The notes beneath the pieces were generated by a model. The model was not told where the DNA came from. It was given only the letters and a program-made list of their open reading frames with translations, and did no database searches. Positions 2,034 to 29,948 of a stretch of DNA of 33,327 nt are shown here, in pieces (positions within the stretch are counted from its first letter, which is position 1; the number at the start of each line of letters is the position of its first letter). The stretch is taken from the NCBI GenBank assembly GCA_023150835.1, contig JAKLKB010000072.1, positions 1 to 33,327 of the forward strand. Reading direction: 5' to 3'. The translations under genes and the position numbers were made by a program. Source of the stretch: Myxococcota bacterium. Its GTDB lineage: Bacteria > Myxococcota_C > UBA6777.

Positions 2034-2420
2034 CTGCTCTCTCGATCACATAAAAATCCTCAACTGTGATCAACTCTCATCACTTGTGATCAAAAAAGCA
2101 AGACCTAGAGTAAGCTCCACACGATCCTAAACCAAAAGCTCTCTTCCGTACAACACCAAGCCCCATCACCAACGCTCGCAAGCGCGCTCAACGATCGCGC
2201 ACAACCACCGCTTCTTTCGCACAACAGCATAAGAGACTGAATTGCAAAAGAAAACAAAAAAAACAATTTTCTCGTAACACCTCGCTTCGCTCCTGCGACC
2301 TATGCAACGAATCACCCAAGCGAACTCACCCCACATCACACGATGGAGGACGCTTGGGATAGTGTGCGCCTCGTCGCACTTCCTCTCTTTATGCAGCAAG
2401 AATCCAAAAAGGAGTGTTCG
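2034..2420. other. Intergenic region between tnpA and the bufferin operon
   Basis: About 390 bp separate the divergent tnpA and bufA genes. The first 60 bp carry the TGATC motifs of the IS end. The stretch 2240-2275 is very A-rich, and the bufA promoter and leader should lie between there and 2420. Open frames here look like shadows. A candidate ECF-type promoter is described separately. Confidence 0.5.
2274..2299 (+). promoter_or_regulatory. Candidate ECF (SigF-like) promoter upstream of bufA
   Basis: GTAACA at 2274-2279 and CGAC at 2296-2299 are separated by exactly 16 bp, downstream of an A-rich stretch. In Caulobacter the ECF factor SigF controls bufferin operons from a promoter I recall as GTAACC-N16-CGAA. 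The match here is five of six and three of four with the same spacing. Transcription would leave a leader of about 115 nt before the bufA ATG. No sigF gene is seen in the window, so this is a suggestion only. Confidence 0.35.
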
Positions 2421-2684
2421 ATGAACAACGTATTCAAAGGTGCCATCATCGCTTCTGCCGTCGCTGGTCTTCTCGCAACCACCGCTTGCGGTACCCCCAC
2501 CAATACCACCACGCAATCCGTCAAGTGCAGCGGGATCAACGAGTGCAAAGGTCAAGGTGCCTGCGGTGCCAAAGACGGCAGCCACGACTGCGCGGGCAAA
2601 AACGAGTGCAAAAGCAAAGGCTGGGTCAAAAAAACCGAAGCCGAATGCAAAACCGCTGGCGGCACCAACCTCGGCCCAGCCTGA
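2421..2684 (+). CDS. bufA: Bufferin precursor peptide, BufA2-like (RiPP precursor)
   Basis: An 87-residue secreted, Cys-rich precursor. The ATG has a strong AAGGAG site 8 bp upstream. Residues 1-22 form a signal peptide (MNNVFKG, then a hydrophobic stretch ending LLATTAC). The core has six regularly spaced cysteines, C36, C42, C48, C57, C63 and C76, in repeated KCSG/NECKG/CAGKNECK motifs, which is the BufA2 pattern; a seventh, C23, sits at the signal cleavage region and could be lipidated, though TTAC is a poor lipobox. In known bufferins the MNIO enzyme converts core cysteines to thiooxazoles or related heterocycles and the periplasmic product sequesters copper. The following MNIO and DUF2063 genes support this assignment. 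The exact modification here is inferred. Confidence 0.87.
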   Translation: MNNVFKGAIIASAVAGLLATTACGTPTNTTTQSVKCSGINECKGQGACGAKDGSHDCAGKNECKSKGWVKKTEAECKTAGGTNLGPA

Positions 2685-2780
2685 TCCCCACCGCGAACGC
2701 CTCCATCCTTCGGGATGGATCGACGTTAAGCGCACCACAAGCGTGCAGATACGAACCCCCACCTCTTTCTCACGCACAGA

Positions 2781-2822
2781 CCGCGATGCAGCACCCCACG
2801 GCGTTCATCGCGGTTTTTTTTT
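2781..2822 (+). terminator. Rho-independent terminator/attenuator after bufA
   Basis: CCGCGATG at 2781-2788 pairs with CATCGCGG at 2806-2813 around a 17-nt loop and is followed directly by nine T residues (2814-2822). It lies between the precursor gene and its modification genes. This would give abundant short bufA transcript with partial read-through into bufBC, a common layout in RiPP operons. Confidence 0.85.
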
Positions 2823-2840
2823 GTGGAGTTTCACTTTATT

Positions 2841-2965
2841 TTGTGGGGTTTCACCCCAGACCCCACAAGGGAGCGCGGCTCCCTTGACCCCGTATCGGCG
2901 AAGAGATCACAGGTTTTCCAAACAGACAGCTCTTTCGCTTGAGGAGATCGAACACGGCTTTTTTT
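2841..2965 (+). repeat. Dispersed repeat family A, copy 1
   Basis: A copy of a ~125-bp dispersed element. It starts TTTGTGGGG with a short GTGGGG...CCCCA stem, then CAAGGGAG...CTCCCTTG as a second hairpin, then ACCCCGTATCGGCGAAGAGATCAC, and ends at GAACACGGC. It lies between the bufA terminator and bufB, so it would be part of the read-through transcript. Other copies are at 5161, 5987 (minus), 23239, 24039 (minus) and 27199. Confidence 0.85.
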
Positions 2966-3052
2966 GGCAACTGCGTAACTCCTATTCGAGAAACACGGCT
3001 TGATCGAATGAGCCGCACAGTTTCGAGGAAGAAAGATGGAGAGTTCTGATCG

Positions 3053-3931
3053 ATGACCAGCACACCTTATCTCGGACACGGAATCGGCCTACGCACCGTC
3101 CATTTTGACTATCTCCTACAACACCCGCCTGATGGGGTCGACTGGTTCGAGATCATCTCCGAAAACTACCTAGAACCCGGGGGCCGCCCGTGGGCCGTGT
3201 TGGAAAGGGTGCGCGCCCATTGCCCTGTCGTGATGCACGGAGTCTCCCTTGGGATCGGCAATACCGACGCTCTCTCTATCGAACACCTCCGCGCACTCAA
3301 AGCCCTCAAACAGCGCCTCCAACCTGCGTGGGTCTCGGATCACCTGTGCTGGGGCGCATTCGGTGGACACAACAGCCACGATCTCCTGCCCCTCCCCTAC
3401 ACCGAAGAAGCCATCCGCCACATCGTCCCTCGCGTCCAACAAGTCCAAGACACCCTCGGATGCCAGATCCTGCTCGAAAATGTCTCTAGCTACGTCACTT
3501 TCCCCGAAAGCGAACTCACCGAATGGGACTTCTTGCGTGAGATCTCTGAGCGCGCCGACTGCAAGATCCTCTTGGATGTCAACAACATCTACGTCAGCGC
3601 CTTCAACCACGGCTTCTCGATCGACACCTACCTCCAAGCCATCCCTCTCGATCGTGTCGGCCAATTCCATCTCGCTGGACACACAAACTACGGCGAATAC
3701 ATCATCGACACGCACATCGGACCTGTGATCGACGATGTGTGGGCTGTTTACCGCAAAGCCCTTGACCGCTTCGGCCCCATCTCCGCGCTCGTCGAATGGG
3801 ACGAAGATATCCCACCCTTCGCAGACGTCCTCCAAGAAGTCCGACGCTCCCGCTCCATCGAAGCTACATGGCGCGCACAAACCAACAACACCTCCACATC
3901 CCCCAAGGAGGCTCGCCATGCCCTCGCATAA
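3053..3931 (+). CDS. bufB: MNIO (DUF692) multinuclear iron oxidase, bufferin maturase BufB
   Basis: A 292-residue DUF692/MNIO protein of typical length. These TIM-barrel enzymes carry two or three iron atoms and oxidise cysteines of RiPP precursors. Likely metal ligands are visible along the chain: H62 in MHGVSLGIG, H97 in SDHLCW, E142 in LLENVSSY, D175 and N178 in LLDVNNIYV, H206/H210 in FHLAGH, D219 and H221 in IDTHIG, and E248 in VEWDEDIP. The N-terminal LGHGIGLR and the ISENYL motif are also family hallmarks. GGAGAG lies 9-14 bp upstream of the ATG. It follows the bufA precursor and overlaps bufC by 14 bp, so BufB and BufC are probably made together and act as a complex on BufA in the cytoplasm before export. 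Confidence 0.94.
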   Translation: MTSTPYLGHGIGLRTVHFDYLLQHPPDGVDWFEIISENYLEPGGRPWAVLERVRAHCPVVMHGVSLGIGNTDALSIEHLRALKALKQRLQPAWVSDHLCWGAFGGHNSHDLLPLPYTEEAIRHIVPRVQQVQDTLGCQILLENVSSYVTFPESELTEWDFLREISERADCKILLDVNNIYVSAFNHGFSIDTYLQAIPLDRVGQFHLAGHTNYGEYIIDTHIGPVIDDVWAVYRKALDRFGPISALVEWDEDIPPFADVLQEVRRSRSIEATWRAQTNNTSTSPKEARHALA

Positions 3932-5105
3932 CACCGAAGACAACCGCGCACTCCTCCATCCTGCCCATACAACCGACAAAACCGAGCCACCACACCATCT
4001 CGCTCATACCCCCGAACAAACCAATCCAACACACCATCACGCCCATACTTCCGAACAAACTGATCCACCATACCATCTCGCTCATACTTCCGAACAAACT
4101 GATCCACCATACCATCTCGCTCATACTTCCGAACAAACCGATCTCTGGACGCATCCACCGCTTCATATCGGACGCCTCCCCGAAGAACAGATCTATGCGA
4201 TCTTTTGGCAACAAGTCGGCGACCTTGGCAACGCAGGAGCAGAGCACACCGCCCCAAACTTGCGCAAACTGCAAGCCCGTTTTATGGCTCACATCCGACA
4301 TCCCGAAGGCCCCGAGATCGCCAAAGCCCACACCGCTGGCCTCGATCCCGAACTCCAACGCCTCCAAAACTGGATCGCCGCACCCAACGAAGACTTCGCC
4401 ATCCAACGCTTTTCGATCTACGCCAACGCCTACTTTACCCGTCTCTACGATATTTTACGCGACTTCTTCCCTCGTCTCGTCGAAGCACTCGATGAAGACA
4501 GCTTCCAAAACCTGATCGTGGACTATCTGATCGTGTACCCCTCGACCCATCCTTCCGCCCATCTGATCGGCGAACATCTCTCCGACTTCTTGCGCGCCTA
4601 TCCACGCCCCAACGCCCCGCACTGGCTCCCCGATCTCGTCGCTCTCGAATGGGGCCGCCTTGAACAGTTCTGCAAACCCGACCACCCGATCCTCACCCAA
4701 GCCGAACTCGCGGCGTATCCCCCCGAATCATGGGGCGAGATGCGCTTTGGCCTCAGCCCTGCCTGCGCACTCCTGCACCTTCAATCCCCCGCCTACCGCA
4801 TCTGGCTCGCGCTCCACGACAAAACTCCACTTCCTCCCATCCCTCACCAAGAATCCCCAACCCTCGTCTGGCGCTCTGGCTTTTCTCTCAGCCACGAATC
4901 TCTTACCTCTTCCGAAGCCTCCGCTTTTCAGATGCTTCAATCGGGCGCTGACTTCAACACCTTCTGCGGATGCTTCCTTGCCGACGAAGCTGGCGAACAA
5001 CAAGAACTCACCCAAGAGATCCTCCAACGCACCATCCAAAAAGCCTACACCTGCTTCGGTCGCTGGCTTGGCTACGGCCTCTTCACCGAGATCCTCCCCG
5101 CCTAA
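3918..5105 (+). CDS. bufC: DUF2063 RiPP maturation partner BufC with His-rich N-terminal repeats
   Basis: A 395-residue protein. From about residue 90 it is a DUF2063 (MNIO partner) protein, with LRKLQARFMAHIR, RFSIYANAYFTRLYDIL, FFPRLVEALDED and, further on, PDLVALEWGRLEQF, all hallmarks of the family. Such proteins recognise the precursor and hold it for the MNIO enzyme. The start is the ATG at 3918, with AAGGAG 8 bp upstream, inside the end of bufB. Unusually, residues 24-75 are four 13-residue repeats of the type PPYHLAHTSEQTD, two or three His per unit, encoded by perfect to near-perfect 39-bp DNA repeats. Ordinary DUF2063 proteins of about 250-280 residues lack this extension. The region could bind metal, but it could also be a neutral minisatellite expansion. 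Confidence 0.9.
   Translation: MPSHNTEDNRALLHPAHTTDKTEPPHHLAHTPEQTNPTHHHAHTSEQTDPPYHLAHTSEQTDPPYHLAHTSEQTDLWTHPPLHIGRLPEEQIYAIFWQQVGDLGNAGAEHTAPNLRKLQARFMAHIRHPEGPEIAKAHTAGLDPELQRLQNWIAAPNEDFAIQRFSIYANAYFTRLYDILRDFFPRLVEALDEDSFQNLIVDYLIVYPSTHPSAHLIGEHLSDFLRAYPRPNAPHWLPDLVALEWGRLEQFCKPDHPILTQAELAAYPPESWGEMRFGLSPACALLHLQSPAYRIWLALHDKTPLPPIPHQESPTLVWRSGFSLSHESLTSSEASAFQMLQSGADFNTFCGCFLADEAGEQQELTQEILQRTIQKAYTCFGRWLGYGLFTEILPA
3987..4142 (+). repeat. 4 x 39-bp in-frame tandem repeat in bufC
   Basis: Units begin at 3987, 4026, 4065 and 4104. The last two are identical over most of their length and the first two diverged. The period is a multiple of three, so the frame is kept; each unit encodes a PPYHLAHTSEQTD-like peptide. 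Confidence 0.92.
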
Positions 5106-5160
5106 TACATCCCCACACCGCACACACCGCATCGCATCGGACAAATGATGGGTTTTTGAT

Positions 5161-5286
5161 CTTGTGGGGTGCCACCCCACACCCCGCAAGGGACTGTCGC
5201 CCCTTGACCCCGTATCGGCGAAGCGATCACAGGTCTTTCAAGACAACGACTCTGTCGCTTGGGCGTTCGCGAACACGGGTTTTTTG
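5161..5286 (+). repeat. Dispersed repeat family A, copy 2
   Basis: It begins CTTGTGGGGTGCCACCCCAC, continues with CGCAAGGG...CCCTTGACCCCGTATCGGCGAAG, and ends GCGAACACGGG followed by TTTTTT. It lies 55 bp after the bufC stop. Together with the inverted copy at 5987-6111 it brackets the minisatellite region. Confidence 0.85.
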
Positions 5287-5618
5287 AACACGCGAGATGG
5301 GCAGAAAATTCGCGATGTTCTTACCCCGCACCCCCTGCCCCCTCTCCCCGCGACGCTACACTGCGGAGGCGAGGGGGAGAAGAAAAAGCCCAAAAGAACG
5401 GGGGATCGTGACAACCTCGACGCAGACGGAAACAAAGTGTTGTTCGCTGCTGTGTCTCACTAATTAGCCGCTGCGTTCGCTTGGGTTCCCCTCGCCTTGC
5501 AGCGAGGCTTTGCAAGCGTCGCAGGGAGAGGGGTGTCGCGAAGCGACGGGGTGAGCGTCACACGTTTTGTACCCTTGTAAGCCCCTACCCCAATTGAATG
5601 CAAAAAGCTTTTAAATAC

Positions 5619-5911
5619 ATCCGAAAGCAGAGCATCCACATCTGAAAGCAGAGCATCCACATCTGAAAGCAGAGCATCCACATCTGAAAGCAGAGCATTC
5701 ACATCTGAAAGCAGAGCATCCATATCTGAAAGCAGAGCATTCACATCTGAAAGCAGAGCATTCACATCTGAAAGCAGAGCATCCACATCTGAAAGCAGAG
5801 CATCCACATCTGAAAGCAGAGCATCCACATCTGAAAGCAGAGCATTCACATCTGAAAGCAGAGCATCCACATCTGAAAGCAGAACATTCACATCTGAAAG
5901 CAGAGCATCTG
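5619..5911. repeat. 21-bp minisatellite, about 14 units
   Basis: ATCTGAAAGCAGAGCATCCAC is repeated about 14 times with a C/T variant (ATCCAC or ATTCAC) and rare other changes. On the minus strand the array reads as a heptapeptide (ALLSDVD or ALLSDVN) in one frame and CSAFRCG in another. No ribosome site, signal peptide or homologous flank supports translation, so it is treated as non-coding. Confidence 0.95.
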
Positions 5912-12371: not shown

Positions 12372-13103
12372 ATGCGGATCTTGTACGAAAGCGCGGAGTG
12401 CGTGGCACTCGATAAGCCCGCAGGCATCGCCTTTCATGGACGCGATGAACAAGAAGGATTTGTAGAGCAGGTTCGCCGCTTGATGGCCGAAGGAAGGCTG
12501 CCTGCGTGGGGGCCCTTGTATCCGGTGCATCGGCTTGATGCGGTGACTTCGGGGATCTTGTTGCTTGCACGAAGCCTCGAAGCAGCGAGGGTTTTGGGAG
12601 AGGCATTTGCGAAGCGCCAAGTGCAAAAGCTTTATCTGGCGCTTTCGCAGCACAAACCCTCCAAAAAACAAGGCCGCATCATCGGGGATATGGAGCGCAG
12701 CCGACGCGGAGCGTGGAAGCTGTTGCGAACGACCGAATCACCCGCCATCACGCGATTTTTGAGCCAACACGTCGCTGAAGCCCAGCCTCCGTTGCGTTTG
12801 TTTTTGCTCAAACCCGAAACGGGGAAGACCCATCAGATCCGCGTCGGCATGAAAAGTCTGGGATCGCCGATCCTTGGCGATGCGTTGTACAGCGGAGGTG
12901 GAGAGAGGCGAGTGGACGAAGTCTCGGGGGAATGTGCCGAGGTTCGCACCTATTTGCATGCGTGGCGTGTAGAGTTCGATCTGTTCGGGGCATCGGTCTC
13001 GATCGTCGCCGAACCGATGGAGGGGGCACGATTTCTCCAGCCCGCGATACAAGAAAAGCTGGTGCAGTGGCGAGAACATACGATCGACTCGTTGTTTCCG
13101 TGA
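12372..13103 (+). CDS. RluA-family pseudouridine synthase
   Basis: A 243-residue synthase that isomerises specific uridines in rRNA or tRNA to pseudouridine. The family signature HRLD lies at 53-56 within PVHRLDAVTSGILLLA, with D56 as the catalytic aspartate. KLYLAL, GKTHQIRVGMKSLGSPILGD and the C-terminal LHAWRVEF complete the RluA pattern. There is no S4 domain, so it resembles the short TruC/RluA-type enzymes and the site of modification is unknown. The ATG is preceded by GGGAGAAAAAGAGAG. The last codons of the gene (IDSLFP stop) are part of a 73-bp tandem repeat that continues downstream. Confidence 0.92.
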   Translation: MRILYESAECVALDKPAGIAFHGRDEQEGFVEQVRRLMAEGRLPAWGPLYPVHRLDAVTSGILLLARSLEAARVLGEAFAKRQVQKLYLALSQHKPSKKQGRIIGDMERSRRGAWKLLRTTESPAITRFLSQHVAEAQPPLRLFLLKPETGKTHQIRVGMKSLGSPILGDALYSGGGERRVDEVSGECAEVRTYLHAWRVEFDLFGASVSIVAEPMEGARFLQPAIQEKLVQWREHTIDSLFP

Positions 13104-13248
13104 GGTCACCGCGTTCTCTGTCTAGTGGAAAATGTCGGACATGAGCGAACACACGATAGACTCGCTGTTTCCGTGAGGTCACCGCGTTCCCTGTCTAGTG
13201 GAAAATGTCGGACATGAGCGAACACACGATAGACTCGTTGTTTTCGTG
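13080..13248 (+). repeat. 73-bp tandem repeat overlapping the 3' end of the pseudouridine synthase gene
   Basis: Units start at 13080, 13153 and 13226 (the last about 23 bp only) and are nearly identical. Each begins with the bases for the last residues IDSLF and the stop, so the gene terminus has been copied in tandem into the spacer before the next gene. The second unit has GATAG where the first has GATCG. Confidence 0.93.
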
Positions 13249-13261
13249 AGGTTGTTTTGGA

Positions 13262-20255: not shown

Positions 20256-20399
20256 CGCGTTTTGCGCTCCGAATTCTTTCGGGCTTCAACAACTTATGCT
20301 CTTGGCGCGATGTCAAGGTGCGTGCGTCTTTTCCGTTCGCAACGCATTTGCTCCCCCTCGAAAGACAAGGTTGTTGGCAAACGTAAAGAAAGCACACTC

Positions 20400-23213
20400 T
20401 TGATCCAGCGTTGGTTTTTCGGCTTGTTTTTGGGAATATGTTTGGGGCCCTTTGGAAGAATCGGAGAGCAGCTTCTGTGCGCTGAAACGCCCAGAAGACG
20501 GCCTGTTTTGGGCAGCCACAGGGGGCTGCCCCTACGTTTTACGATCTCACAACAAGCGGATCTCGGATCGCACCCCTCCCGCTCACTCGCACAAAAGCAC
20601 CCGCCTCGCGCTTACGATCTCCGAGTGATGCGCACGCAAAGCATCGTTCGCAGACGCCCTGTTTTGGGCAGCCACAGGGGGCTGCCCCTACGTTTTACGA
20701 TCTCACGACAAGCGGATCTCGGATCGCACCCCTCCCGCTCACCCGCACAAAAGCACCCCTCTCGCTTGGTTGCACAAGAGCTTCCTTCCGTCGAAGAGAT
20801 CAAAGAACTCAAGCAGAAGTCTTCTCCGACAACGCGTCCGACACTTCCACCCCACAAAACACCGACATCTCCACAGCCCGCTGCACCACAAACACCGACA
20901 TCTCCACAGCCCGCTGCACCACAAACACCGACACCTCCACAGCCCGCTGCACCACAAACACCGACACCTCCACAGCCCGCTGCACCACAAACACCATCCC
21001 TCCCCCAATCGATCCGCCAAACGTCGGCACCTCCGAAACCTGCTGCATCACAAACATCGACACCTCCGCAGCCTGCTGCACCACAAACGCCGCCACGTCC
21101 GAAACAACCTCAACGCGATGTGACGCTAGACGATGCGACCGTGTTGGGAAAGCGCCAACAACGCAGCGATGCGGCCTCACGTTTTCAGATCGAACTGGGG
21201 GCGTTGCAGATCATCCCGCGAAAAGATGTCACCGAGCAGCTGATGTTGGCTCCGGGGGTGTTGACCATCAATCACGGCGGAGAAGGGCACGCGCAAGAGA
21301 CCTATATGCGGGGATTTGCAGCAGGTGAGGGGCAGGACATCGAGTTTTTGGTCGACGGTGTTCCGCTCAACGAGGTCAGCAATCCACACGGTCACGGTTA
21401 TACGGATCTGTATTTCATACCACCCGAATTCGTGCGATCGCTCGATATCACAGAAGGCGTCTTTGAGGCGAGCCAAGGGGACTTTGCTTTTGCAGGGACG
21501 GCGCATTATCGGCTCGGTGTAGAAGAACGCGGAGCGCGGCTTTCGTATCGTGGCGGGATGTGGAACACCCATCGCTTGGTGCTGATGTACGCGCCACCGT
21601 CTGAACCTGCCGAGACGTTCGCTGGTTTTGAGCTGTACCGCACAGACGGCTACGGTCAAAATCGCTCGGCACAACGGGCTTTGGGGTTGGGACGTTATCT
21701 GTTGCGCGACACAGGAACCTTTCGGATGGCCTTTTCTGTCTATGCTTACGCTGCGCGCTTTGATCAAGCAGGCGTGATCCGCCAAGATGACTTTTTGGCC
21801 GGACGGATCGGCTTCTTTGAGACCTACGATCCGAACCAAGGCGGAGAGAGCAATCGTTTGTTGTTATCGGTCGATACGGCCTTTGGCCCACGAGAGCAGC
21901 GCTTTCAGATGGTGGTATTTGCGGGGTATCGGACGATGCGCCTCCGAAATAACTTTACGGGGTGGCTCAATGACCTCAAGATCGACCCCGACGGGACACC
22001 TGTCACGAAACAGCGCGGCGATGGAAACGAGATGCGTTATGGTGTGTTAACGGCGGGTTCACGGGGTGATTACACGCTCACGCTCAACATCGCAAAGCAA
22101 CAACAGATCGTCTCGATGGGTTATGCGCTGCGCGTCGATCATGGTGATTCCTCGATATCGCGTTTGCGCTCTGTGACGGCGATCCCGTATCGACGGATCT
22201 TTGACTTTGGTTTTACCACCCTGAATATCGCGGGCTGGATGCAAGGGCAGCTTCGATTTACCACGTGGTTCGGACTGCGTGCAGGGGTGCGGATCGACAC
22301 GTTTGGTTTTGGTGTGTTGGATCGCAACCAACCCACCGCCGATCGCGAAGGCCGTCGGCTCTCCGATCAAAGCAGCCAAGCCTTTGGCTTTGCGATCAAT
22401 CCTCGCGCTACGTTGGACTTTCGCTTGTGGCCTGCCTTGCATCTGTTGATCAGCTACGGTCAAGGAACCCGATCCACCGAAGCAGCCGCCCTCTCCGACA
22501 ACGAGACCGCTCCTTTTGCCCGCGCCCAAGTCGCCGATATCGGCCTTTCGTACACCTATGGCCGCCAAGGTGCGGGGATCTTTCTCAAATCCCAACTCAG
22601 CTATGTTTTTTCTTACGTCGACAAAGACTTGATCTTTGACGAAGAAGTCGGACGCAACGTCCTCACCAGCGCTTCGATGCGACATGCTGTCTTGTTGGGC
22701 GTACGGATGAACTACAACCGCTGGCTTGATGCCTTGGTCAACGTGGGATGGGCGCACGCAACGCGCCTTGATACGGGCGAATTATTCCCTTACATCCCGC
22801 AATGGGTGGTGCGTGCAGATATCGCCGTCAATGGGCCGCTGTTTGGTTGGAAAGTCGGTGGACGCCCTGTCTGGGGCCGCGTCGGTCTTGGATTCACCTT
22901 CGTTCCGGGGCGGCCCTTGCCCTACCAAGAATGGGGCGATCCATTTTATTTGTTGAGCCTTGGGGGATCGATGCGCTTTTGGCATATCGAATTGGGCGTC
23001 GAAGCGCGCAATCTGCTCGGGTTTCAGTACCGACAAGCCGAATTTTCTTACACAAGCAATTTCGCAGGCCCAACCGCCATCCCGCCCCGCTTACCCGAAC
23101 GGCACTTTGCCGCAGGCGAACCGCTTACGATCATGGCGAACTTGACGCTGCATCTCGAAGAGATGTTGGTGCAGCTTCAAACAGCCACAAGAGAAGAAAA
23201 GAGGAAAAAATGA
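20400..23213 (+). CDS. TonB-dependent outer-membrane receptor
   Basis: A 937-residue receptor read from a TTG at 20400, which begins a good signal peptide (MIQRWFFGLFLGICLG, up to LLCAE); an ATG at 20310 would add 30 residues. The segment up to about 130 holds two copies of repeat B in frame, then a run of 11-residue repeats (TPTSPQPAAPQ), about 150-235, as a flexible spacer. The plug follows: QIIPRKDVTEQLMLAPGVL, MRGFAAGEGQDIEFLVDGVPLN and NPHGHGYTDLYFIP. The remainder is a beta barrel that ends around residue 920. The receptor imports a substrate with energy from TonB-ExbB-ExbD, encoded downstream. His residues in the plug (NHGGEGHAQ, NPHGHG) hint at a metal or metal chelate, but this is inference. 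The gene ends with an ATGA overlap. Confidence 0.92.
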   Translation: MIQRWFFGLFLGICLGPFGRIGEQLLCAETPRRRPVLGSHRGLPLRFTISQQADLGSHPSRSLAQKHPPRAYDLRVMRTQSIVRRRPVLGSHRGLPLRFTISRQADLGSHPSRSPAQKHPSRLVAQELPSVEEIKELKQKSSPTTRPTLPPHKTPTSPQPAAPQTPTSPQPAAPQTPTPPQPAAPQTPTPPQPAAPQTPSLPQSIRQTSAPPKPAASQTSTPPQPAAPQTPPRPKQPQRDVTLDDATVLGKRQQRSDAASRFQIELGALQIIPRKDVTEQLMLAPGVLTINHGGEGHAQETYMRGFAAGEGQDIEFLVDGVPLNEVSNPHGHGYTDLYFIPPEFVRSLDITEGVFEASQGDFAFAGTAHYRLGVEERGARLSYRGGMWNTHRLVLMYAPPSEPAETFAGFELYRTDGYGQNRSAQRALGLGRYLLRDTGTFRMAFSVYAYAARFDQAGVIRQDDFLAGRIGFFETYDPNQGGESNRLLLSVDTAFGPREQRFQMVVFAGYRTMRLRNNFTGWLNDLKIDPDGTPVTKQRGDGNEMRYGVLTAGSRGDYTLTLNIAKQQQIVSMGYALRVDHGDSSISRLRSVTAIPYRRIFDFGFTTLNIAGWMQGQLRFTTWFGLRAGVRIDTFGFGVLDRNQPTADREGRRLSDQSSQAFGFAINPRATLDFRLWPALHLLISYGQGTRSTEAAALSDNETAPFARAQVADIGLSYTYGRQGAGIFLKSQLSYVFSYVDKDLIFDEEVGRNVLTSASMRHAVLLGVRMNYNRWLDALVNVGWAHATRLDTGELFPYIPQWVVRADIAVNGPLFGWKVGGRPVWGRVGLGFTFVPGRPLPYQEWGDPFYLLSLGGSMRFWHIELGVEARNLLGFQYRQAEFSYTSNFAGPTAIPPRLPERHFAAGEPLTIMANLTLHLEEMLVQLQTATREEKRKK
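20493..20535 (+). repeat. Dispersed repeat family B, copy 2, inside receptor gene
   Basis: GCCTGTTTTGGGCAGCCACA followed by GGGGGCTGCCCCTAC. It is read in frame within the receptor's N-terminal extension (RRPVLGSHRGLPLRF) and pairs with copy 3 156 bp further on. Confidence 0.85.
20650..20691 (+). repeat. Dispersed repeat family B, copy 3, inside receptor gene
   Basis: GCAGACGCCCTGTTTTGGGC followed by AGCCACAGGGGGCTGCCCCT and AC. With copy 2 it forms a tandem duplication of period 156 bp (52 codons), so the protein repeats RRPVLGSHRGLPLRFTIS and QADLGSHPSRS. Confidence 0.85.
20862..21100 (+). repeat. 33-bp Pro-rich tandem repeat in receptor gene
   Basis: Units of about 33 bp encode TPTSPQPAAPQ; four are near-perfect and later units diverge (SLPQSIRQTS, PPKPAASQTS). 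The period is a multiple of three, so the array grows or shrinks without frameshift. It probably spans the periplasmic spacer between the signal peptide and the plug. Confidence 0.88.
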
Positions 23214-23238
23214 ACATAGCAATCGCGCCGATGGGCTT

Positions 23239-23371
23239 GTTTTGTGGGGCGTTGCCCCACACCCCACAAGGGAGCATCGCCCCCTTGACCCCATGTCGGC
23301 GAAGAGATCGCCGTTTTTCACTCCCACAACTCTGTCGATTGAAAGGGCGCGAACACGGGGGGAGTTTTGGC
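23239..23371 (+). repeat. Dispersed repeat family A, copy 4
   Basis: TTTTGTGGGGCGTTGCCCCA, CAAGGGAG...CCCTTGACCCCATGTCGGCGAAG and GCGAACACGGGG match the family. It starts 29 bp after an ATGA start codon that overlaps the receptor stop, and its frame is open from that ATG. Confidence 0.85.
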
Positions 23372-23452
23372 CGAAGTGTCACTCCGATCCACAGCGGCCT
23401 ACATCCGAGGAGAACGCGAACACAAGGCAGAAGGATTGGAAACTGCGCAGCA

Positions 23453-23953
23453 ATGGTCAAAAGAGGGATTGCGCTTTGGGGTCTCGCTGTTTTGGTCGTG
23501 GCAACCCTCCGATGCGACGGGCAAAATAGCGAGTTTGCGTGCGGCCTAAACCAAAATGGCTGGCAGCGCTGCGTAGACAACAAGATCCGCTATTGTCACG
23601 CAACCACCGAAGAAGACGGTCATTTTCACTGGGGGCAAAAGTGCGTCGATCAAGGCTTGCTCTGCGAGATCGTCGGCGAACGCAAAGCCGCCTGCATCGA
23701 CAAAACCAAAGCCTGTCAAGCCAACGAAGCCAAGTGCGAAAACAACACCGTTTACACCTGCATCAACGGCTTTTTTTCGGTGACTCCCTGTGGTACGGCC
23801 AAGACCTGCACCGTAGAAGGCGGATCCGCCCAATGCAAGAGCAATAGTGGCCCTGCGTGCAACGGACACGGCGATATCTACGACGGAAAGTGCGAATGCA
23901 ACAAAGGCTACAAAGTCGATGCGTCCGATGCGACGAAGTGCATCGCAGAATGA
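23453..23953 (+). CDS. Secreted Cys-rich protein with EGF-like C-terminus
   Basis: A 166-residue exported protein. The listed ATG starts a signal peptide (MVKRGIALWGLAVLVVATLRC); an alternative ATG at 23210, overlapping the receptor stop as ATGA, would add 81 residues encoded mostly by repeat A. The mature part has about 16 cysteines. The C-terminal segment CNGHGDIYDGKCECNKGYKV resembles an EGF-like module. TLRC is a poor lipobox, so lipidation is uncertain. A surface or periplasmic binding role near the receptor is likely. The ribosome site is only GGATTGGA, and the start remains unsure. The gene is framed by repeat A copies in opposite orientations. Confidence 0.8.
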   Translation: MVKRGIALWGLAVLVVATLRCDGQNSEFACGLNQNGWQRCVDNKIRYCHATTEEDGHFHWGQKCVDQGLLCEIVGERKAACIDKTKACQANEAKCENNTVYTCINGFFSVTPCGTAKTCTVEGGSAQCKSNSGPACNGHGDIYDGKCECNKGYKVDASDATKCIAE

Positions 23954-23991
23954 GGCCGCTCTATCCGATGCGACGAAGTGCATCGCAGAAT
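23924..23991 (+). repeat. 40-bp tandem duplication of gene 3' end
   Basis: A 28-bp sequence, TCCGATGCGACGAAGTGCAT plus CGCAGAAT, occurs at 23924-23951 and again at 23964-23991. The first copy contains the last codons of the EGF-like gene; the second is non-coding after the stop. Confidence 0.9.
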
Positions 23992-24038
23992 AATTCGGAA
24001 AAAAAGCGTACGACAAAAAAAGGAGCATCGCGTTGGCC

Positions 24039-24168
24039 CAAAACCCCCGTGTTCGCGTCATGTCGAGCGGCTGTGCTGTGGGTCTGAAAAACACCTGCTC
24101 GCTCCGCCGATACGGGGTCAAGGGGGCCGAGACCCCTTGCGGGGCGTGGGGCAGCGCCCCACAAAACC
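24039..24168 (-). repeat. Dispersed repeat family A, copy 5 (inverted)
   Basis: On the plus strand: AAACCCCCGTGTTCGC, CCGATACGGGGTCAAGGGGG, CCCCTTGCGGGGCGTGGGGC and AGCGCCCCACAAAA. With copy 4 it forms an inverted pair around the EGF-like gene. Confidence 0.85.
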
Positions 24169-24241
24169 ATTCAAAGGCTTAATTCCTCAAAGAGTCGGAA
24201 AAGACATCCGATAAAAAGTAGGGATCGAGGAGAAGAAGAAG

Positions 24242-25006
24242 ATGCGTTGGTATGGATGGCTGTGTTTGATTGTGGGATTGTGGGGTTGTGAGGCGAAGAC
24301 AAGCGGTGTCAAGATCCAGTTTCAGGCGTCGGTGGTGGGAGCGATGTCCGATGGAAAGCCTGTGGGGGTCTTTGAAAATCGGCAGGGCTGGAAAGTGACG
24401 TTGGAGAAGGCACACTTTCTTTTCGGTCCTGTGGTCTTTTACGAAGGCAAGCCGCGTGTAGCGTGGTGGCGAGAGTTGCCACGATGGGGATCGGCGTATG
24501 CTGATCCCGGCCATGTGACGGTCGATAACCGCAAAGTGCTTGCGGAGGTGCGTGGGCAATATGTCTTGGATCTGTTGAAGGGCGAGGCGCTTGATCTCGG
24601 AAAAAACAGCGGGATCGAAGGGACGTTGCAATCCGTCGAGTTGCAGTTGTTACCGCCCGCAGGTGGAGTGATCGGAACGGTGGCCGAGATGGAAGGAGCG
24701 ACTTTTTCGGCACTTGGTCAAGCAGAAAAAGCTGGAGAGATCAGAAGATTTCATACGAAGCTGACGATCCCTGACGGCGGAACGCAGCGACTGGTGCAAG
24801 GGATCGAAGCGGAAGTTGCTTTGTCAGCAGCGAAGGTGGGGACGGGTCGGCTGGAAGTGCGGATCTTTGTGGATCGGTTGTTGGGGAGCGTCGACTTCGG
24901 GGGTTTGAGCGAAAAGGAGGGAGAGCGTTATGTGTTGAATGAAAAAGACGGCGGGATCGTGCAAGGGATACGGTCGCGTTATTCGTACGGCGTGGTCTGG
25001 AGGTAA
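24242..25006 (+). CDS. Lipoprotein of unknown function, TonB locus
   Basis: A 254-residue lipoprotein: residues 1-16 end in GLWGC, a lipobox with C16. The ATG follows GGAGAAGAAGAA. The motif GWKVTLEKAHFLFGPVVFY near residues 46-65 resembles GWKLKFTKLLIVVGDVALV in the next gene, so the two are probably relatives. A DPGH element (YADPGHVTVD), DLLKGEALDLG and IEGTLQSVELQLLPP follow. I do not recognise a named family. Position between a TonB receptor and TonB genes suggests an outer-membrane or periplasmic accessory for substrate capture. The next gene starts 2 bp after its stop. Confidence 0.85.
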   Translation: MRWYGWLCLIVGLWGCEAKTSGVKIQFQASVVGAMSDGKPVGVFENRQGWKVTLEKAHFLFGPVVFYEGKPRVAWWRELPRWGSAYADPGHVTVDNRKVLAEVRGQYVLDLLKGEALDLGKNSGIEGTLQSVELQLLPPAGGVIGTVAEMEGATFSALGQAEKAGEIRRFHTKLTIPDGGTQRLVQGIEAEVALSAAKVGTGRLEVRIFVDRLLGSVDFGGLSEKEGERYVLNEKDGGIVQGIRSRYSYGVVWR

Positions 25007-25008
25007 GG

Positions 25009-25953
25009 ATGCGGGATCTGCGTTGGTTTGTGTGGTTTGTGTGCGGGGCGTGCTTGGTTTGGGGTGCGTCGGCTTGTACAGGCGAAGACTTCGCTGGCAA
25101 GGGAACGGTGGCCTTGTCGCTGAGTGGTGGAGAAGCTTTACGCGAAGGATTTCCACACAAGGAGAGCGGTACAGAGCGATCATTTGTGGATGGATGGAAG
25201 CTCAAGTTTACAAAACTGCTGATCGTGGTGGGTGACGTCGCGTTGGTGCGGCCCGAAAAGAAGGATGTGGCGGCCTCTTGGAAAGGTCCGCTTTTGGTGG
25301 ATATGATGGCCGAAGCCGTCCAAGGTGGCGGAACACAGGGGACATTGGAGTTTGCGGAGATCAAGGACGTTCCGGCCTTGCGCTTGAATGTGGGATTTTC
25401 GGTGCTTCCCGCAACAGCAGGGGTCGAAAAGAGATACGCCACAGAAGCCGACGCCAACGAGATGATCGCAAAGGGTTGGTCTTTTTTGTTTGAAGGAACC
25501 GCAAACAAAGAAGGGACGGCAGAGATCAAGTTTCGTTTGGGGCTACCGCTACATCTGCGCTATTCGGAGTGCAGCAACGGCAAGGACTCGACCTTGGGCT
25601 TGGCGGTAGAGAGCAACAAAAAGACAGGCGCGTTGATCTACTTGCATCCGATCCATCTGTTTTGGGATTCCTTGGGCGAAGGCAAAAGCAAGCTGCGCTT
25701 TGATGCGTTTGCAGCGGTGGCAGGTGACGATAAGCTCGTTGTATCGGATGAGTTGGCGACCCAAGACCTCACAAAACTCAAAGGACTCAATGGAGAGCGA
25801 CTCAAAGGAGCAGACGGCGCGTTGGTGTACTACGACGACAACGGACTTTTACCACCCGATCAGTTGAATCTACTGGCCTTTTTCCAATTTGCGGTGCGAG
25901 ATAGCATCCATTTTAACGGGTTGGGGCTGTGCAGATCCGAGCGGATCCGATGA
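25009..25953 (+). CDS. Second lipoprotein of unknown function, related to the preceding one
   Basis: A 314-residue lipoprotein with signal sequence ending GASAC (C23). It begins 2 bp after the preceding gene, with GGAGGTAAGG across that junction as its ribosome site. DGWKLKFTKLLIVVGDV near residues 62-78 and the later DVPALRLNVGFSVLPA are shared in style with the 24242 product. It contains ECSNG and a hydrophobic GALIYLHPIHLFWD segment. The closing DSIHFNGLGLC is reminiscent of a beta-sandwich end. No family is recognised. It most likely acts at the outer membrane with its neighbour and the receptor. Confidence 0.85.
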   Translation: MRDLRWFVWFVCGACLVWGASACTGEDFAGKGTVALSLSGGEALREGFPHKESGTERSFVDGWKLKFTKLLIVVGDVALVRPEKKDVAASWKGPLLVDMMAEAVQGGGTQGTLEFAEIKDVPALRLNVGFSVLPATAGVEKRYATEADANEMIAKGWSFLFEGTANKEGTAEIKFRLGLPLHLRYSECSNGKDSTLGLAVESNKKTGALIYLHPIHLFWDSLGEGKSKLRFDAFAAVAGDDKLVVSDELATQDLTKLKGLNGERLKGADGALVYYDDNGLLPPDQLNLLAFFQFAVRDSIHFNGLGLCRSERIR

Positions 25954-26118
25954 GGTGGTGTATGTGGCGGATCCGATGAGGTGGTGGATCCGATGAGGTG
26001 GTGGATTCGATGAGGTGGTGTATTCGATGAGGTGGTGTATTCGATGAGGTGGTGTATGTGGTGGATTCGATGAGGTGGTGTATGTGGCGGATTCGGTGAG
26101 GTGGTGTATGTGGCGGAT
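25935..26118 (+). repeat. Degenerate 17-26 bp minisatellite
   Basis: GATYCGATGAGGTGGTG, often followed by TATGTGGCG, is repeated about nine times between the lipoprotein stop and the next gene. The unit contains GAGGTGG and ATG and could be mistaken for repeated ribosome sites. Confidence 0.88.
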
Positions 26119-26317
26119 TCTTTGTCGTGGATGGGAGAGAGGCACAAGGCCGAGCAAAGCAGCAGCGTTCGGCTGTCGATGGCTGTTTGCTTGCGGGCGA
26201 TCTACGTATGCTTGGTTGCGGGCGGCTTTTGATGCCTTGGCGACGAAGCCATCGTTAGAGGCGGCTTTTTCTGACTTGGCTACGGGGGCTTGGTGGACGG
26301 GCTATCTTGCTTTGGCT

Positions 26318-27178
26318 ATGGGGGCTTGGTTGTGGGTGGTTTGTTGTACCTCGGTGGTGTGGGCGGAGCCACCCTTGCCGCGAGAAAATCGCCCGCAGCG
26401 ATGGGCCGATCAGCCCGTTTTGGTCCGAAAAAAAGGCGAACGAAAGCCGCGTTCCAAAGCCCCGTCATCACGGCAGTTGCAGCGATGGTCTGCGGAGCTT
26501 GTGCGTCTGCGAACAGAAGTCGATCGCGTCTCTTCGCAGATCCGCATCGAACGGGAGCAATCGCTGTTGGCCTTGCGCGGATTGGAAAGTCGTCGGGCGC
26601 AGTTGCAGAGCATGGTGGATCAAGAGCGATTGCGATTCCAGCGGTGGATGGGGCAGGTTGAGCGATTGAAACAGCAGTTACAAAGCCGCAGCATGGCGCA
26701 ATCGGCGATCCACGACGCTTTGTTGGATGCCTTAAAAAGTGTCGAGCAAGCGATCGAAGGCAGTCTGCCTTACCGGCGCAAAGAGCGATGGGAACAAGTG
26801 CAAAAGATCCGAGTGCGGATGAAAGCGGGTCGAATCGACGCAGAACAAGGTGTTGCGGCGCTTTGGCGGATATTAGAAGACGAATTGCGTCTAACAGCAT
26901 TGGTGGAACGTGCGGAGCTTCCGCTTGAACTGCACAAAGGAAAGCCGCCGCGCCTTGTAAAAGTCGTCCGCGTCGGGATGATCGCGATGTTTGTGTTGGA
27001 AGGAAAAGGACGGTACGGTCGGATGGTTCGGGATGCGAAAGGTGGGTGGGTGTATCTCTTGGCCCGCTCACTCGAAGACAGGGAGCAGATCGCGTTGTTG
27101 TTTGAAAACCTTGAGCGACAGATCCGCGAAGGCTTGTATCGTTTGCCGCTGTTGGCTCCGAAAGGAGGGCAGCGATGA
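26318..27178 (+). CDS. DUF3450-family periplasmic coiled-coil protein
   Basis: A 286-residue protein. The ATG at 26318 begins a short signal peptide, MGAWLWVVCCTSVVWAEP; the frame stays open upstream to 26075 through the minisatellite, so the start is not secure. The next ~90 residues form a coiled coil (LQRWSAELVRLRTEVDRV, ERLKQQLQSR). The family pattern LPYRRKERWEQVQKIR, then LWRILEDELRLTA and a beta-rich end with GGWVYLLARS fits DUF3450, which precedes the ttpC-exbB-exbD-tonB genes in Vibrio-type TonB2 systems. It is probably periplasmic and aids energy transfer. The stop overlaps an ATG of the next gene region (ATGA). Confidence 0.82.
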   Translation: MGAWLWVVCCTSVVWAEPPLPRENRPQRWADQPVLVRKKGERKPRSKAPSSRQLQRWSAELVRLRTEVDRVSSQIRIEREQSLLALRGLESRRAQLQSMVDQERLRFQRWMGQVERLKQQLQSRSMAQSAIHDALLDALKSVEQAIEGSLPYRRKERWEQVQKIRVRMKAGRIDAEQGVAALWRILEDELRLTALVERAELPLELHKGKPPRLVKVVRVGMIAMFVLEGKGRYGRMVRDAKGGWVYLLARSLEDREQIALLFENLERQIREGLYRLPLLAPKGGQR

Positions 27179-27198
27179 GAAGAGTGAAGCGGTTGAGA

Positions 27199-27335
27199 TC
27201 GTGTGGTGGGGCGCGGCCCCACGCCCCGCAAGGGAGTGCGGCTCCCTTGACCCCGTGTAGGCGGAACGAACAGACATTTTTCAAACAAACGACGGAACCG
27301 TTTGGAATACCGAGAACACGGGGAAATTTTGTCAA
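27199..27335 (+). repeat. Dispersed repeat family A, copy 6
   Basis: GTGTGGTGGGGCGCGGCCCC, GCAAGGGAG...CCCTTGACCCCGTGTAGGCGGA and GAACACGGGG. It lies 24 bp after an ATG that overlaps the DUF3450 stop. The frame from that ATG is open through the repeat and joins the TtpC gene. Confidence 0.83.
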
Positions 27336-27363
27336 AAGCGGGGCTGCGAGGACAGGCTTTTGC

Positions 27364-28749
27364 TTGAAAAGCGGATGGTACATCGCTTTGTGCGCATTGG
27401 TTTTCTCTCCGATGCGCGCTCGTGCCGAAGAGAAGGGTATCTTGCCTTCTTTTGAACAAAGCTATCGACAAGAAAAACGAGAACTAGAACAGACCCTTGC
27501 AAGCATGAAAGAAACGTTGCGCCAAGTCCAACAGGATGGAACACAGCGTAGGCTCCGATTAGAAGGACAGATCCGCCAATTGACAGGCGAGATGACGGGA
27601 CTGCGAAAAAAAGCCGAAGAGATGGAAGATCGTCTGCAAGGACTCAAGCAGCGTTGGTCTTCTGTGCGCGAATACAAGGAGCTTTTGAAGGGTACGTTGC
27701 AGATGGGGACTCGCACCCTACGCGAAGAGATCCCAAGTTTGCGTCTTGAAGGAGAAACACCGCAACAGATCCGCAAGTTGTTCGCAGAGGGAGCGCAGTA
27801 TCTACGGCAACGGGCTTCGGTGCATGAGACCTCGGGTGACTTTTTCGATCTAGAGGGGCATCAAGTCCGAGGTCGGATCGTACATGTGGGCGAGATCGCA
27901 GCGTTGGGTGTCGGCGGCGGAAAGGCGGGGGTATTGCGCCGATTGTCGGGGGGCGGCCTGCGGCTGATCCCCCCACAGGAAGGGCATATCGAAGCAGCCA
28001 AGTCTTTGGTGGTGGGGCGCTTGATGGAGAGGATTCCTGTCTATCTGTTTGATCCATTGAGCAAAAGTGGAGATCCTGCTCCTGTTCGGACAGCGTTGGC
28101 GACCGTCGAAGCGGGTGGGCCGATCGCTTGGGTGATCTTGGTGTTGGGGATGTTTGGGGTGTTGTTGTTGTTGGAGCGCTTGTGGACACTTTCACGCGAA
28201 ACGGTGGGACGAGAGACCCGATGGGAAGAAGTCTTGGGGTGGGTGCGTGTAGGGCAGACAGAGAAAGCGTTAAAGTCTGTGCGTCGGATGGGACTGGCTG
28301 GACCTGTCTTGGGCGTGTTGATCGAGGAGCGCGAGCGGTCGCGGGAGGTCTTAGAACAGCGGGCAAGTGAGGCGTTGTTGGAGCAGATGCCGCTGCTGGA
28401 GCGTTCGACGGCGTTGTTGGGGGTGTTGGTGACGGTGGCTCCGCTGCTTGGGCTTTTGGGGACAGTAACAGGGATGATCTCGACCTTCGATGTGATCACC
28501 ACACACGGAACAGGAAACCCGCGACTGCTCTCTCAAGGGATCTCGGAAGCGCTCATCACAACGGAGCTTGGACTGGCGGTCGCGATCCCGCTGCTGTTGG
28601 CCAAAAGCTTTTTTGTGCGGTGGGCGGATCGGCTTTTGGAAACAACGCAACGAAGGTCGTTGGCTTTGCTTTATACACTAAAAGGCATCGAAGAAGCGCA
28701 TCCATCGGACGAACCAGAAGACAAGAGGAACTCGGATGTTCTGGCGTGA
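27364..28749 (+). CDS. ttpC: TtpC-like MotA/TolQ/ExbB protein with periplasmic coiled coil
   Basis: A 461-residue protein from the TTG at 27364, which has GAGGA 11 bp upstream and gives a clean signal peptide (MKSGWYIALCALVFSPMRARA). An upstream ATG at 27175, coupled to the DUF3450 stop, would add 63 residues coded mostly by repeat A. Residues 30-100 are coiled coil, 105-245 a periplasmic domain, then TM helices near 254-273, 347-372 and 398-418. The core has APLLGLLGTVTGMISTF and EALITTELGLAVAIPLLL, typical of MotA/TolQ/ExbB. TtpC proteins of Vibrio connect the TonB2 energy complex to the DUF3450 protein. The C-terminus overlaps a short frame. Confidence 0.9.
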   Translation: MKSGWYIALCALVFSPMRARAEEKGILPSFEQSYRQEKRELEQTLASMKETLRQVQQDGTQRRLRLEGQIRQLTGEMTGLRKKAEEMEDRLQGLKQRWSSVREYKELLKGTLQMGTRTLREEIPSLRLEGETPQQIRKLFAEGAQYLRQRASVHETSGDFFDLEGHQVRGRIVHVGEIAALGVGGGKAGVLRRLSGGGLRLIPPQEGHIEAAKSLVVGRLMERIPVYLFDPLSKSGDPAPVRTALATVEAGGPIAWVILVLGMFGVLLLLERLWTLSRETVGRETRWEEVLGWVRVGQTEKALKSVRRMGLAGPVLGVLIEERERSREVLEQRASEALLEQMPLLERSTALLGVLVTVAPLLGLLGTVTGMISTFDVITTHGTGNPRLLSQGISEALITTELGLAVAIPLLLAKSFFVRWADRLLETTQRRSLALLYTLKGIEEAHPSDEPEDKRNSDVLA

Positions 28750-28822
28750 TCAAGAATACCGGTATGGCGCAAACCATAAGCAGGTCGAGGTCGCGCACAG
28801 CATGGCGCGATGGAGGGTGTAG
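28736..28822 (+). CDS. Possible 28-residue ORF linking ttpC and exbB
   Basis: ATG at 28736 overlaps the ttpC stop by 14 bp, has AGAGGAA about 6 bp upstream, and ends 3 bp before the exbB ATG. The peptide is charged (MFWRDQEYRYGANHKQ...) and has no membrane helix. It may only serve to couple translation; a real protein is unproven. Confidence 0.3.
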   Translation: MFWRDQEYRYGANHKQVEVAHSMARWRV

Positions 28823-28825
28823 CCG

Positions 28826-29347
28826 ATGCTCGGAGGTTGGGAAAGCAACGCGATCTTGCGGATGATGTGGGCGGGTGGATGGATGATGTGGCCGCTGGCG
28901 TTTGTGGGAGTATGGGTGTTGTATCTGCTGCTGCTGCGAAGCCTTGAGCTGTGGCAAGTCTGGTGGTGGATGAACAGATGGATCACCGAAAAACCCCGTT
29001 CGGGCGGTGAAGTGGAACGAAAGATGGCGCTTGTCGAGTGGCGGATGACGCTGATGCGGATACCCGTCTTGACGCAAACCCTGATCTCCTCAGCCCCGTT
29101 GATGGGGTTATTGGGAACGGTCAGCGGGATGATCACCACCTTTGAGGCGTTGGCGGATGGCGCATTGCACCAGCCTTCGGGCGGTATCGCAGGTGGGATC
29201 GCACAGGCATTGTTGACAACGCAGTTGGGCTTGAGCATCGCGCTACCTGCTTTGTTGTGGCAGCAATTGTTGGGGCGTTGGGCCTCGCGTTTGGTGTACC
29301 GATTGGGCGCGCTGCAGATCACGAAAATAGCGGCATCTTCGCGGTGA
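28826..29347 (+). CDS. exbB: ExbB-type biopolymer transport protein
   Basis: A 173-residue inner-membrane protein with three helices near 18-40, 84-105 and 130-150. The signature APLMGLLGTVSGMITTFEAL and the ALLTTQLGLSIALPALL segment identify the MotA/TolQ/ExbB family. With ExbD it uses the proton gradient to drive TonB. The ATG has GGAGG 10 bp upstream. It is separated from exbD by 177 bp carrying repeat B; otherwise the order ttpC-exbB-exbD-tonB is intact. Confidence 0.93.
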   Translation: MLGGWESNAILRMMWAGGWMMWPLAFVGVWVLYLLLLRSLELWQVWWWMNRWITEKPRSGGEVERKMALVEWRMTLMRIPVLTQTLISSAPLMGLLGTVSGMITTFEALADGALHQPSGGIAGGIAQALLTTQLGLSIALPALLWQQLLGRWASRLVYRLGALQITKIAASSR

Positions 29348-29400
29348 TGGATGGTACGATATCCGAGAGATCTGTGATCGCAGGATGGATGCGTTCCGCC

Positions 29401-29440
29401 GTAGACGCCCTGTTCTTGGGCAGCAACAGGGGGCCCCTAC
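29401..29440 (+). repeat. Dispersed repeat family B, copy 4, between exbB and exbD
   Basis: GTAGACGCCCTGTTCTTGGG followed by CAGCAACAGGGGGCCCCTAC. An ACGATATCCGAGAGATC block lies about 45 bp upstream. The element separates two genes that are normally tightly linked, so it probably inserted into the operon. Confidence 0.82.
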
Positions 29441-29524
29441 ACATTGCGATTGCACGTTGAGCGGATGATTCGGAGGATTTCGATGGGCCTGAGAGCTTTG
29501 GATTCGGAGGATTGGAGGTGATGG

Positions 29525-29938
29525 GTGTTGCGATTGGGAGAGGTGCGTCGATCTTCGGCATCGCAAGAAGGCATTGATATTGGGCCATTGATCGATATCG
29601 TCTTTATTTTGCTGATCTTTTTTATGGTGAGTACAACCTTTTCGCGGAATCTCGAAGTGCCGCTGGAGCGCCCAAGTGCGAAAAGCGCCAAGAACGCGGA
29701 TACACGGTCGATTCGGATCACGCTAACACGAGAAGGAAATCTGTTTTTGGAGGGAAGCCCTTTGCAACCTTGGATGCTGCAAGATCGCGTGCGTCAGCTT
29801 CTGCAATCGGGACCGAGCCGCCCTGTCTTGATCTCTACGGATAAACGGGCCGAATCAGGCTTGCTGATCGAGTCTGTCGATCAATGCCGATTGGCGGGGG
29901 CAAAGCACGTCGCTGTCGAAACCGAAAAAGCCCGATAG
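29525..29938 (+). CDS. exbD: ExbD-type biopolymer transport protein
   Basis: A 137-residue protein with one N-terminal helix, IDIGPLIDIVFILLIFFMVSTT, and D24, the conserved proton-carrying aspartate. The periplasmic domain reads RSIRITLTREGNLFLEGSPL and PVLISTDKRAESG. The GTG at 29525 with GGAGGTG 6-12 bp upstream is the probable start; a TTG one codon later is possible. It completes the ExbB-ExbD motor. Confidence 0.93.
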   Translation: MLRLGEVRRSSASQEGIDIGPLIDIVFILLIFFMVSTTFSRNLEVPLERPSAKSAKNADTRSIRITLTREGNLFLEGSPLQPWMLQDRVRQLLQSGPSRPVLISTDKRAESGLLIESVDQCRLAGAKHVAVETEKAR

Positions 29939-29948
29939 AGGAGAGCCG

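Follow-up and report, generated by a model that had tools for sequence, protein, structure and literature searches.

A Buf2-type bufferin operon with a terminator between its precursor and enzyme genes in a barely sampled bacterial phylum

We identified, on the forward strand of the window (the whole 33,327-nucleotide stretch of DNA analysed here), three genes predicted to encode a bufferin precursor, an MNIO-family maturase and a partner protein. Each gene is preceded by a plausible ribosome-binding site, and bufC overlaps bufB by 14 nt. At the level of sequence, the comparisons presented below confirm bufA2, bufB and bufC as a three-gene Buf2 bufferin operon. All three predicted proteins match their families above the cut-offs, in agreement with the first-pass annotation, which had described a complete operon of precursor, MNIO enzyme and DUF2063 partner. 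That annotation did not mention the precursor's lipobox, the His-rich repeats of BufC, the dispersed repeat or the sigma-F-like motif. The locus has the following features:

2274–2298, forward strand: sigma-F-type (ECF) promoter-like motif GTAAC-N17-CGA, 147 nt upstream of bufA2
2421–2684, forward strand: bufA2, bufferin precursor; ATG at 2421, Shine-Dalgarno sequence AAGGAG, 87 amino acids
about 2780–2823, forward strand: intrinsic terminator or attenuator in the bufA2-bufB gap, from the fold of 2775–2826, with a T run at its end
2836–2935, forward strand: dispersed repeat element of about 85–100 nt, in the bufA2-bufB gap behind the terminator; shared with genome G001 at this place
3053–3931, forward strand: bufB, MNIO-family bufferin maturase, 292 amino acids
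3918–5105, forward strand: bufC, PME-type-1 partner (DUF2063 plus RRE-like domain); ATG at 3918, Shine-Dalgarno sequence AAGGAGG, 395 amino acids
3918–4178, forward strand: His-rich N-terminal extension of BufC (residues 1–87), largely 39-nt/13-amino-acid tandem repeats

The genome of the window (G000) was compared with the other four genomes of its phylum, G001 to G004 (in the locus set, L034 is G004, L031 is G002 and L002 is G003). BufA2 was found in all five genomes and BufB in four. The genome without BufB is G001, with a completeness of 86%; its contig stops 319 nt past bufA2, after the terminator. The gene order bufA-bufB-bufC is identical in G004 and G002. No second MNIO enzyme or second BufA2 was detected in the genome of the window.

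BufB scored 362 bits against the NCBIfam model NF050167 (MNIO_BufB; cut-off 310) and matched Pfam PF05114 with an E value of 2e-105; its nearest solved structure is that of Histophilus somni, 3BWW. Whether BufB groups with bufferin-type MNIO enzymes had been set in advance as a check on the annotation. In a maximum-likelihood tree, it falls with Buf2-linked enzymes, in a clade (support 99/94) that contains the enzymes of three other genomes of the phylum and of one Myxococcota genome, and 17 of 18 Buf1-linked enzymes form a clade apart from it. Two rows of the tree, L002 and L006, are labelled Buf2 by kinship only, because no bufA2 adjoins bufB in the available DNA. Replacement of N175, D242 or H244 abolishes the activity of HvfB (PMC13419390). 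The equivalent residues of BufB (N178, D219 and H221) are invariant among the aligned relatives, as are H62, H97, E142, D175, H206, E248 and D250; the enzyme has its iron-site residues, in accord with the probable metal ligands first ascribed to it.

Other assignments were considered and rejected. The HvfB/oxazolin type scored 246 bits against a cut-off of 360, and the precursor contains no EGKCG motif; MbnB, for methanobactin, reached 65 of the 325 bits required; and the Buf1 domain DUF2282 gave 11.6 bits (cut-off 22.4). The NCBIfam models for ApyH and ChrH also remained under their cut-offs, as did those for HvfB and MbnB.

The precursor was recognised as BufA2 by NF050166 (Cu_RiPP_BufA2) at 61.2 bits for a cut-off of 60, a margin of about 1 bit. 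Its six core cysteines (C36, C42, C48, C57, C63 and C76) align with those of other Buf2 precursors, bearing out its initial description as a BufA2-like peptide with six core cysteines. The locus thus shares with the published Buf2 type (Buf_6/12Cys; BufA2/BufB2/BufC2) a six-Cys precursor with a Sec signal, an MNIO enzyme, a DUF2063 partner and the order bufABC (PMC12452194). Functional likeness and family membership concur in identifying it as a Buf2 bufferin. BufA2 contains two N-x-C-K motifs, the second of which is CKS (CKT in G001) instead of CKG, so one of the two CKG motifs is degenerate in comparison with Buf2 (PMC12452194). The first motif is altered in G004 (CSG) and G002 (CSA), and only G003 has CKG at both sites. 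Across the phylum, precursors therefore show alternate loss of one CKG motif, the first in G004 and G002 and the second in G000 and G001.

The N-x-C-K motifs of the precursor and the catalytic Asp (D250) of BufB are also found in the ‘Cys-Lys’ group of the captophorins. In Cys-Lys enzymes, the residue following the catalytic Asp is proposed to be an Asp that contacts the substrate lysine, whereas BufB has Glu251 at this site, which is equivalent to FonB-Phe250 (PMC13097082). Because the site is occupied by D, E, A or G among the Buf2-linked enzymes in our sample, an Asp at this position is better seen as a tendency than as a strict criterion.

A seventh cysteine, C23, lies within the signal peptide of BufA2, in the lipobox LATTA|C23G, which has Gly at +2. 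The signal peptide previously noted is indeed present, but it is most likely a lipoprotein signal, and this alters the expected location of the product. The lipobox is weak at −3, where Thr stands in place of Leu, Val or Ile; we take TTA|C with Gly at +2 to fit a relaxed PROSITE-type lipobox rule. The phylum's five genomes all retain the lipobox cysteine, between differing flanks (FAVSAC, VMTVGC, FATTGC and LATTAC), and the mature bufferin is therefore probably a lipoprotein anchored by its lipid. Alternatively, signal peptidase I may cleave the precursor to yield a soluble periplasmic bufferin, the cysteine near the cleavage site being accidental. The Thr at −3 would fit this alternative, as would the observation that the majority of Buf2 precursors are not lipoproteins (PMC12452194). 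We nevertheless regard a soluble product as improbable, given that Gly/Ala-Cys occurs at the site in every genome of the phylum, even where the signal otherwise differs, and that the cysteine is also found in relatives from Myxococcota (L011), Bdellovibrionota (L013) and Thiothrix (L039). The proteobacterial relatives L003, L004, L005, L007, L008 and L010 do not have this cysteine. A lipoprotein is predicted for about 16% of Buf2 precursors (PMC12452194), and a lipid-anchored BufA2 would thus belong to a known sub-type. A predicted lipobox on an MNIO substrate is likewise a feature of the RiPP-lipoprotein hybrids, which comprise DybA, NedA and some bufferins; BufA2 belongs to a precursor family other than those of DybA and NedA, and its lipidation and envelope location are predictions (PMC12636315).

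BufC matched Pfam DUF2063 (PF09836) at 61.3 bits (cut-off 27.2) and scored 47 bits against NCBIfam HvfC, below the cut-off of 142. Its AlphaFold2 model resembles TglI (8hi7_A and 8hci_A) and NGO1945 (3dee), with E values below 1e-4, and RRE proteins appear further down the list of structural matches. The assignment as a DUF2063 partner therefore holds, and outside its extension the modelled BufC is a full DUF2063-RRE partner. At 395 residues, BufC exceeds the 250–260 residues that are the norm for PME-type-1 partners, including those of Buf2 (PMC12452194), a norm that describes size and not a required feature. Most of the excess is an N-terminal extension: the first 112 residues include 17 His, and nearly all of residues 3–87 are predicted to be disordered (pLDDT <50). 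A start at the TTG near 4259, past the extension, was rejected, as it lacks a good ribosome-binding site, whereas the ATG at 3918 has AAGGAGG.

We found no counterpart of the extension in 15 relatives, three genomes of the phylum among them, and the His-rich repeat occurs in a single copy in the genome. It likely arose by repeat expansion from a minisatellite, since the window contains several others. Downstream of bufC, a 21-nt unit is repeated in 14 head-to-tail copies that are 95% alike (5617–5909), and further minisatellites lie at 13074–13252, 20852–21100 and 25941–26120. It is conceivable, but very unlikely in our judgement, that the extension binds cytoplasmic metal and gates or feeds BufB-BufC, rendering the maturation of a lipid-anchored Buf2 bufferin metal-responsive. 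If true, BufC would be a metal-sensing RiPP partner protein, of a kind that we did not find described in the literature surveyed.

The bufA2-bufB gap is 368 nt long, longer than in relatives, and contains the strong terminator that had been proposed to separate the precursor gene from the enzyme genes. Its existence is well supported: the hairpin at 2780–2823 is far more stable than shuffled sequence, the stretch 2775–2826 folding at −23.8 kcal/mol (z −5.7), with none of 200 shuffles as stable. A simple promoter and terminator pattern scan did not detect this terminator because its stem is interrupted. In the sister genome G001, the same terminator and repeat element are present at 93% overall identity up to the contig end. 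G004 and G002 have strong terminators at the same position that are unrelated in sequence (for G002, one shuffle out of 20 was slightly stronger). Each of the phylum's three linked operons thus has a terminator, the sequences differing, and such conservation by position and not by sequence, as judged from these comparisons, favours selection. Published Buf2 clusters (PMC12452194) differ from this operon in the terminator within the bufA-bufB gap. In a post hoc search of a small sample, comprising the loci collected for comparison and plasmid operons, a gap terminator was found in 6 of 13 Buf2 operons (the window, L034, L031, L010, L003 and L011) and in one of 13 Buf1 operons (L012), many Buf1 gaps being too short for one. 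The layout of bufA, terminator and bufBC is recurrent in Buf2, and is neither universal nor special to this operon. We infer that this layout would lead to overproduction of the peptide.

Instead of attenuating, the terminator may simply end a monocistronic bufA2 unit, with bufBC transcribed from a separate promoter in the gap. The length of the gap would accommodate such a promoter, and the dispersed repeat could carry one. In G003, moreover, the precursor gene and bufBC lie on different contigs and are apparently unlinked, and bufBC can therefore be expressed independently. On the other hand, a simple scan limited to sigma-70-like types revealed no such promoter in the gap, and linkage together with a gap terminator is kept in three genera, as expected under read-through control. 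We consider a separate bufBC promoter a tangible but lesser possibility, and favour partial read-through of the terminator. The repeat behind the terminator belongs to a dispersed family of about 85–120 nt with internal inverted repeats, located in the window at 2836–2935, 5156–5280, 23237–23359 and 27199–27322 and matched at least 41 times across the genome (40 of 694 candidates scored).

The motif upstream of bufA2 resembles one recognised by the sigma-F factor of C. crescentus, GTAACC-N16-CGAA, which was mapped at two Buf1-type precursor genes and searched allowing two substitutions (PMC3511200). GTAACA-N16-CGAC at 2274 corresponds to this published motif with two substitutions. The motif was first seen in the window, and GTAAC-N16/17-CGA was then tested at other loci. 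It is present upstream in G001, G004 (−163) and G003 (−106) and absent upstream of the G002 operon, so that, with the window counted, three of the phylum's four independent lineages have it; its frequency in dinucleotide shuffles is ≤0.006. As positive controls, six plasmid Buf1 operons and L012 have the motif upstream, and five of these six plasmid operons have a sigma-factor gene in the examined stretch. Upstream of ten Buf2 operons outside the phylum the motif is absent. A simple promoter scan yielded no credible promoter, and a stricter promoter pattern applied genome-wide for a regulon returned a single further match, which does not precede any obvious gene. The anti-sigma gene NrsF was not detected in the five genomes of the phylum, in a search whose control found it in Caulobacter, and the search for a sigma-F orthologue returned only distant generic ECF factors and no clear orthologue. 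The operon thus shares with the sigma-F regulated Buf1 operons of Caulobacter the motif upstream of the precursor gene, but differs in its Buf2-type precursor, in the absence of a linked sigma gene and in belonging to a phylum without NrsF (PMC3511200). Buf2 clusters are reported to have no sigma-factor genes (PMC12452194), yet a sigma-F-like motif is present here.

Directly upstream of the operon, on the reverse strand, is an IS607-type element (19–2033). It carries an IS607 family serine transposase (NF033518, 216 bits) together with a TnpB-like gene whose score of 90 bits falls narrowly short of the cut-off (100). Further downstream, a gene group at 20262–30638 encodes a TonB-dependent receptor, two ExbB-type proteins, TonB and two unassigned putative lipoproteins (24242 and 25009), and resembles an uptake system for which no substrate was recognised. 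The TonB receptor and lipoproteins at 20–26 kb, considered as copper-related neighbours, matched no copper family. Scanning the window for Rfam families and tRNAs gave no match. Among plasmid records, 312 carry an MNIO relative of BufB (E value of 1e-50 or better), of which 114 are predicted to be conjugative; they include plasmids of Escherichia, Klebsiella and Salmonella.

By analogy with its family, the product is probably a modified peptide that would bind copper. The operon may instead serve another metal or oxidative stress. No copper gene adjoins bufABC; on a Rhodanobacter plasmid (L041, 1157–3795), merT and merP come immediately after a Buf1 operon, consistent with bufferins related to mercury; bufferin-like operons occur as MerC fusions (PMC12452194); and the sigma-F factor of C. 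crescentus acts in heavy-metal stress and has been studied with dichromate (PMC3511200). Yet the characterised bufferins and captophorins are associated with copper (PMC12452194, PMC13097082), and we find a role other than copper unlikely.

Given the analyses presented above, we propose that the locus is a Buf2-type bufferin biosynthetic operon in which copper is the metal bound, and to this identification, taken jointly with the following scheme of expression, maturation and export, we assign a probability of roughly 75%. Transcription probably starts from an ECF-type promoter upstream of bufA2. The terminator that follows bufA2 would stop most transcripts, the remaining minority reading through into bufBC, so that the precursor would be in excess over the enzyme. 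In the cytoplasm, a BufB-BufC complex would recognise the precursor, including its signal peptide, and oxidise the cysteines of the N-x-C-K motifs to 5-thiooxazoles, the modification expected from the family. The modified peptide may then be exported by Sec, lipidated at C23 and cut by signal peptidase II. Held in the envelope, probably at the outer membrane given Gly at +2, the lipidated peptide would tie up excess copper. The cysteines chosen for modification, the metal specificity, the ratio of read-through and the sigma factor involved are presumed in this scheme.

Buf2 bufferins are already known, and the operon described here is well founded and unexceptional as a type; its local features are worth testing. 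A complete Buf2 bufferin system is thereby documented in a barely sampled phylum, of which five genomes were examined. Two testable points were not found in the published surveys consulted: in the Buf2 operons examined, a terminator often splits the precursor gene from the enzyme genes (6 of 13), and a sigma-F-like motif can occur on Buf2 operons in genomes that lack NrsF.
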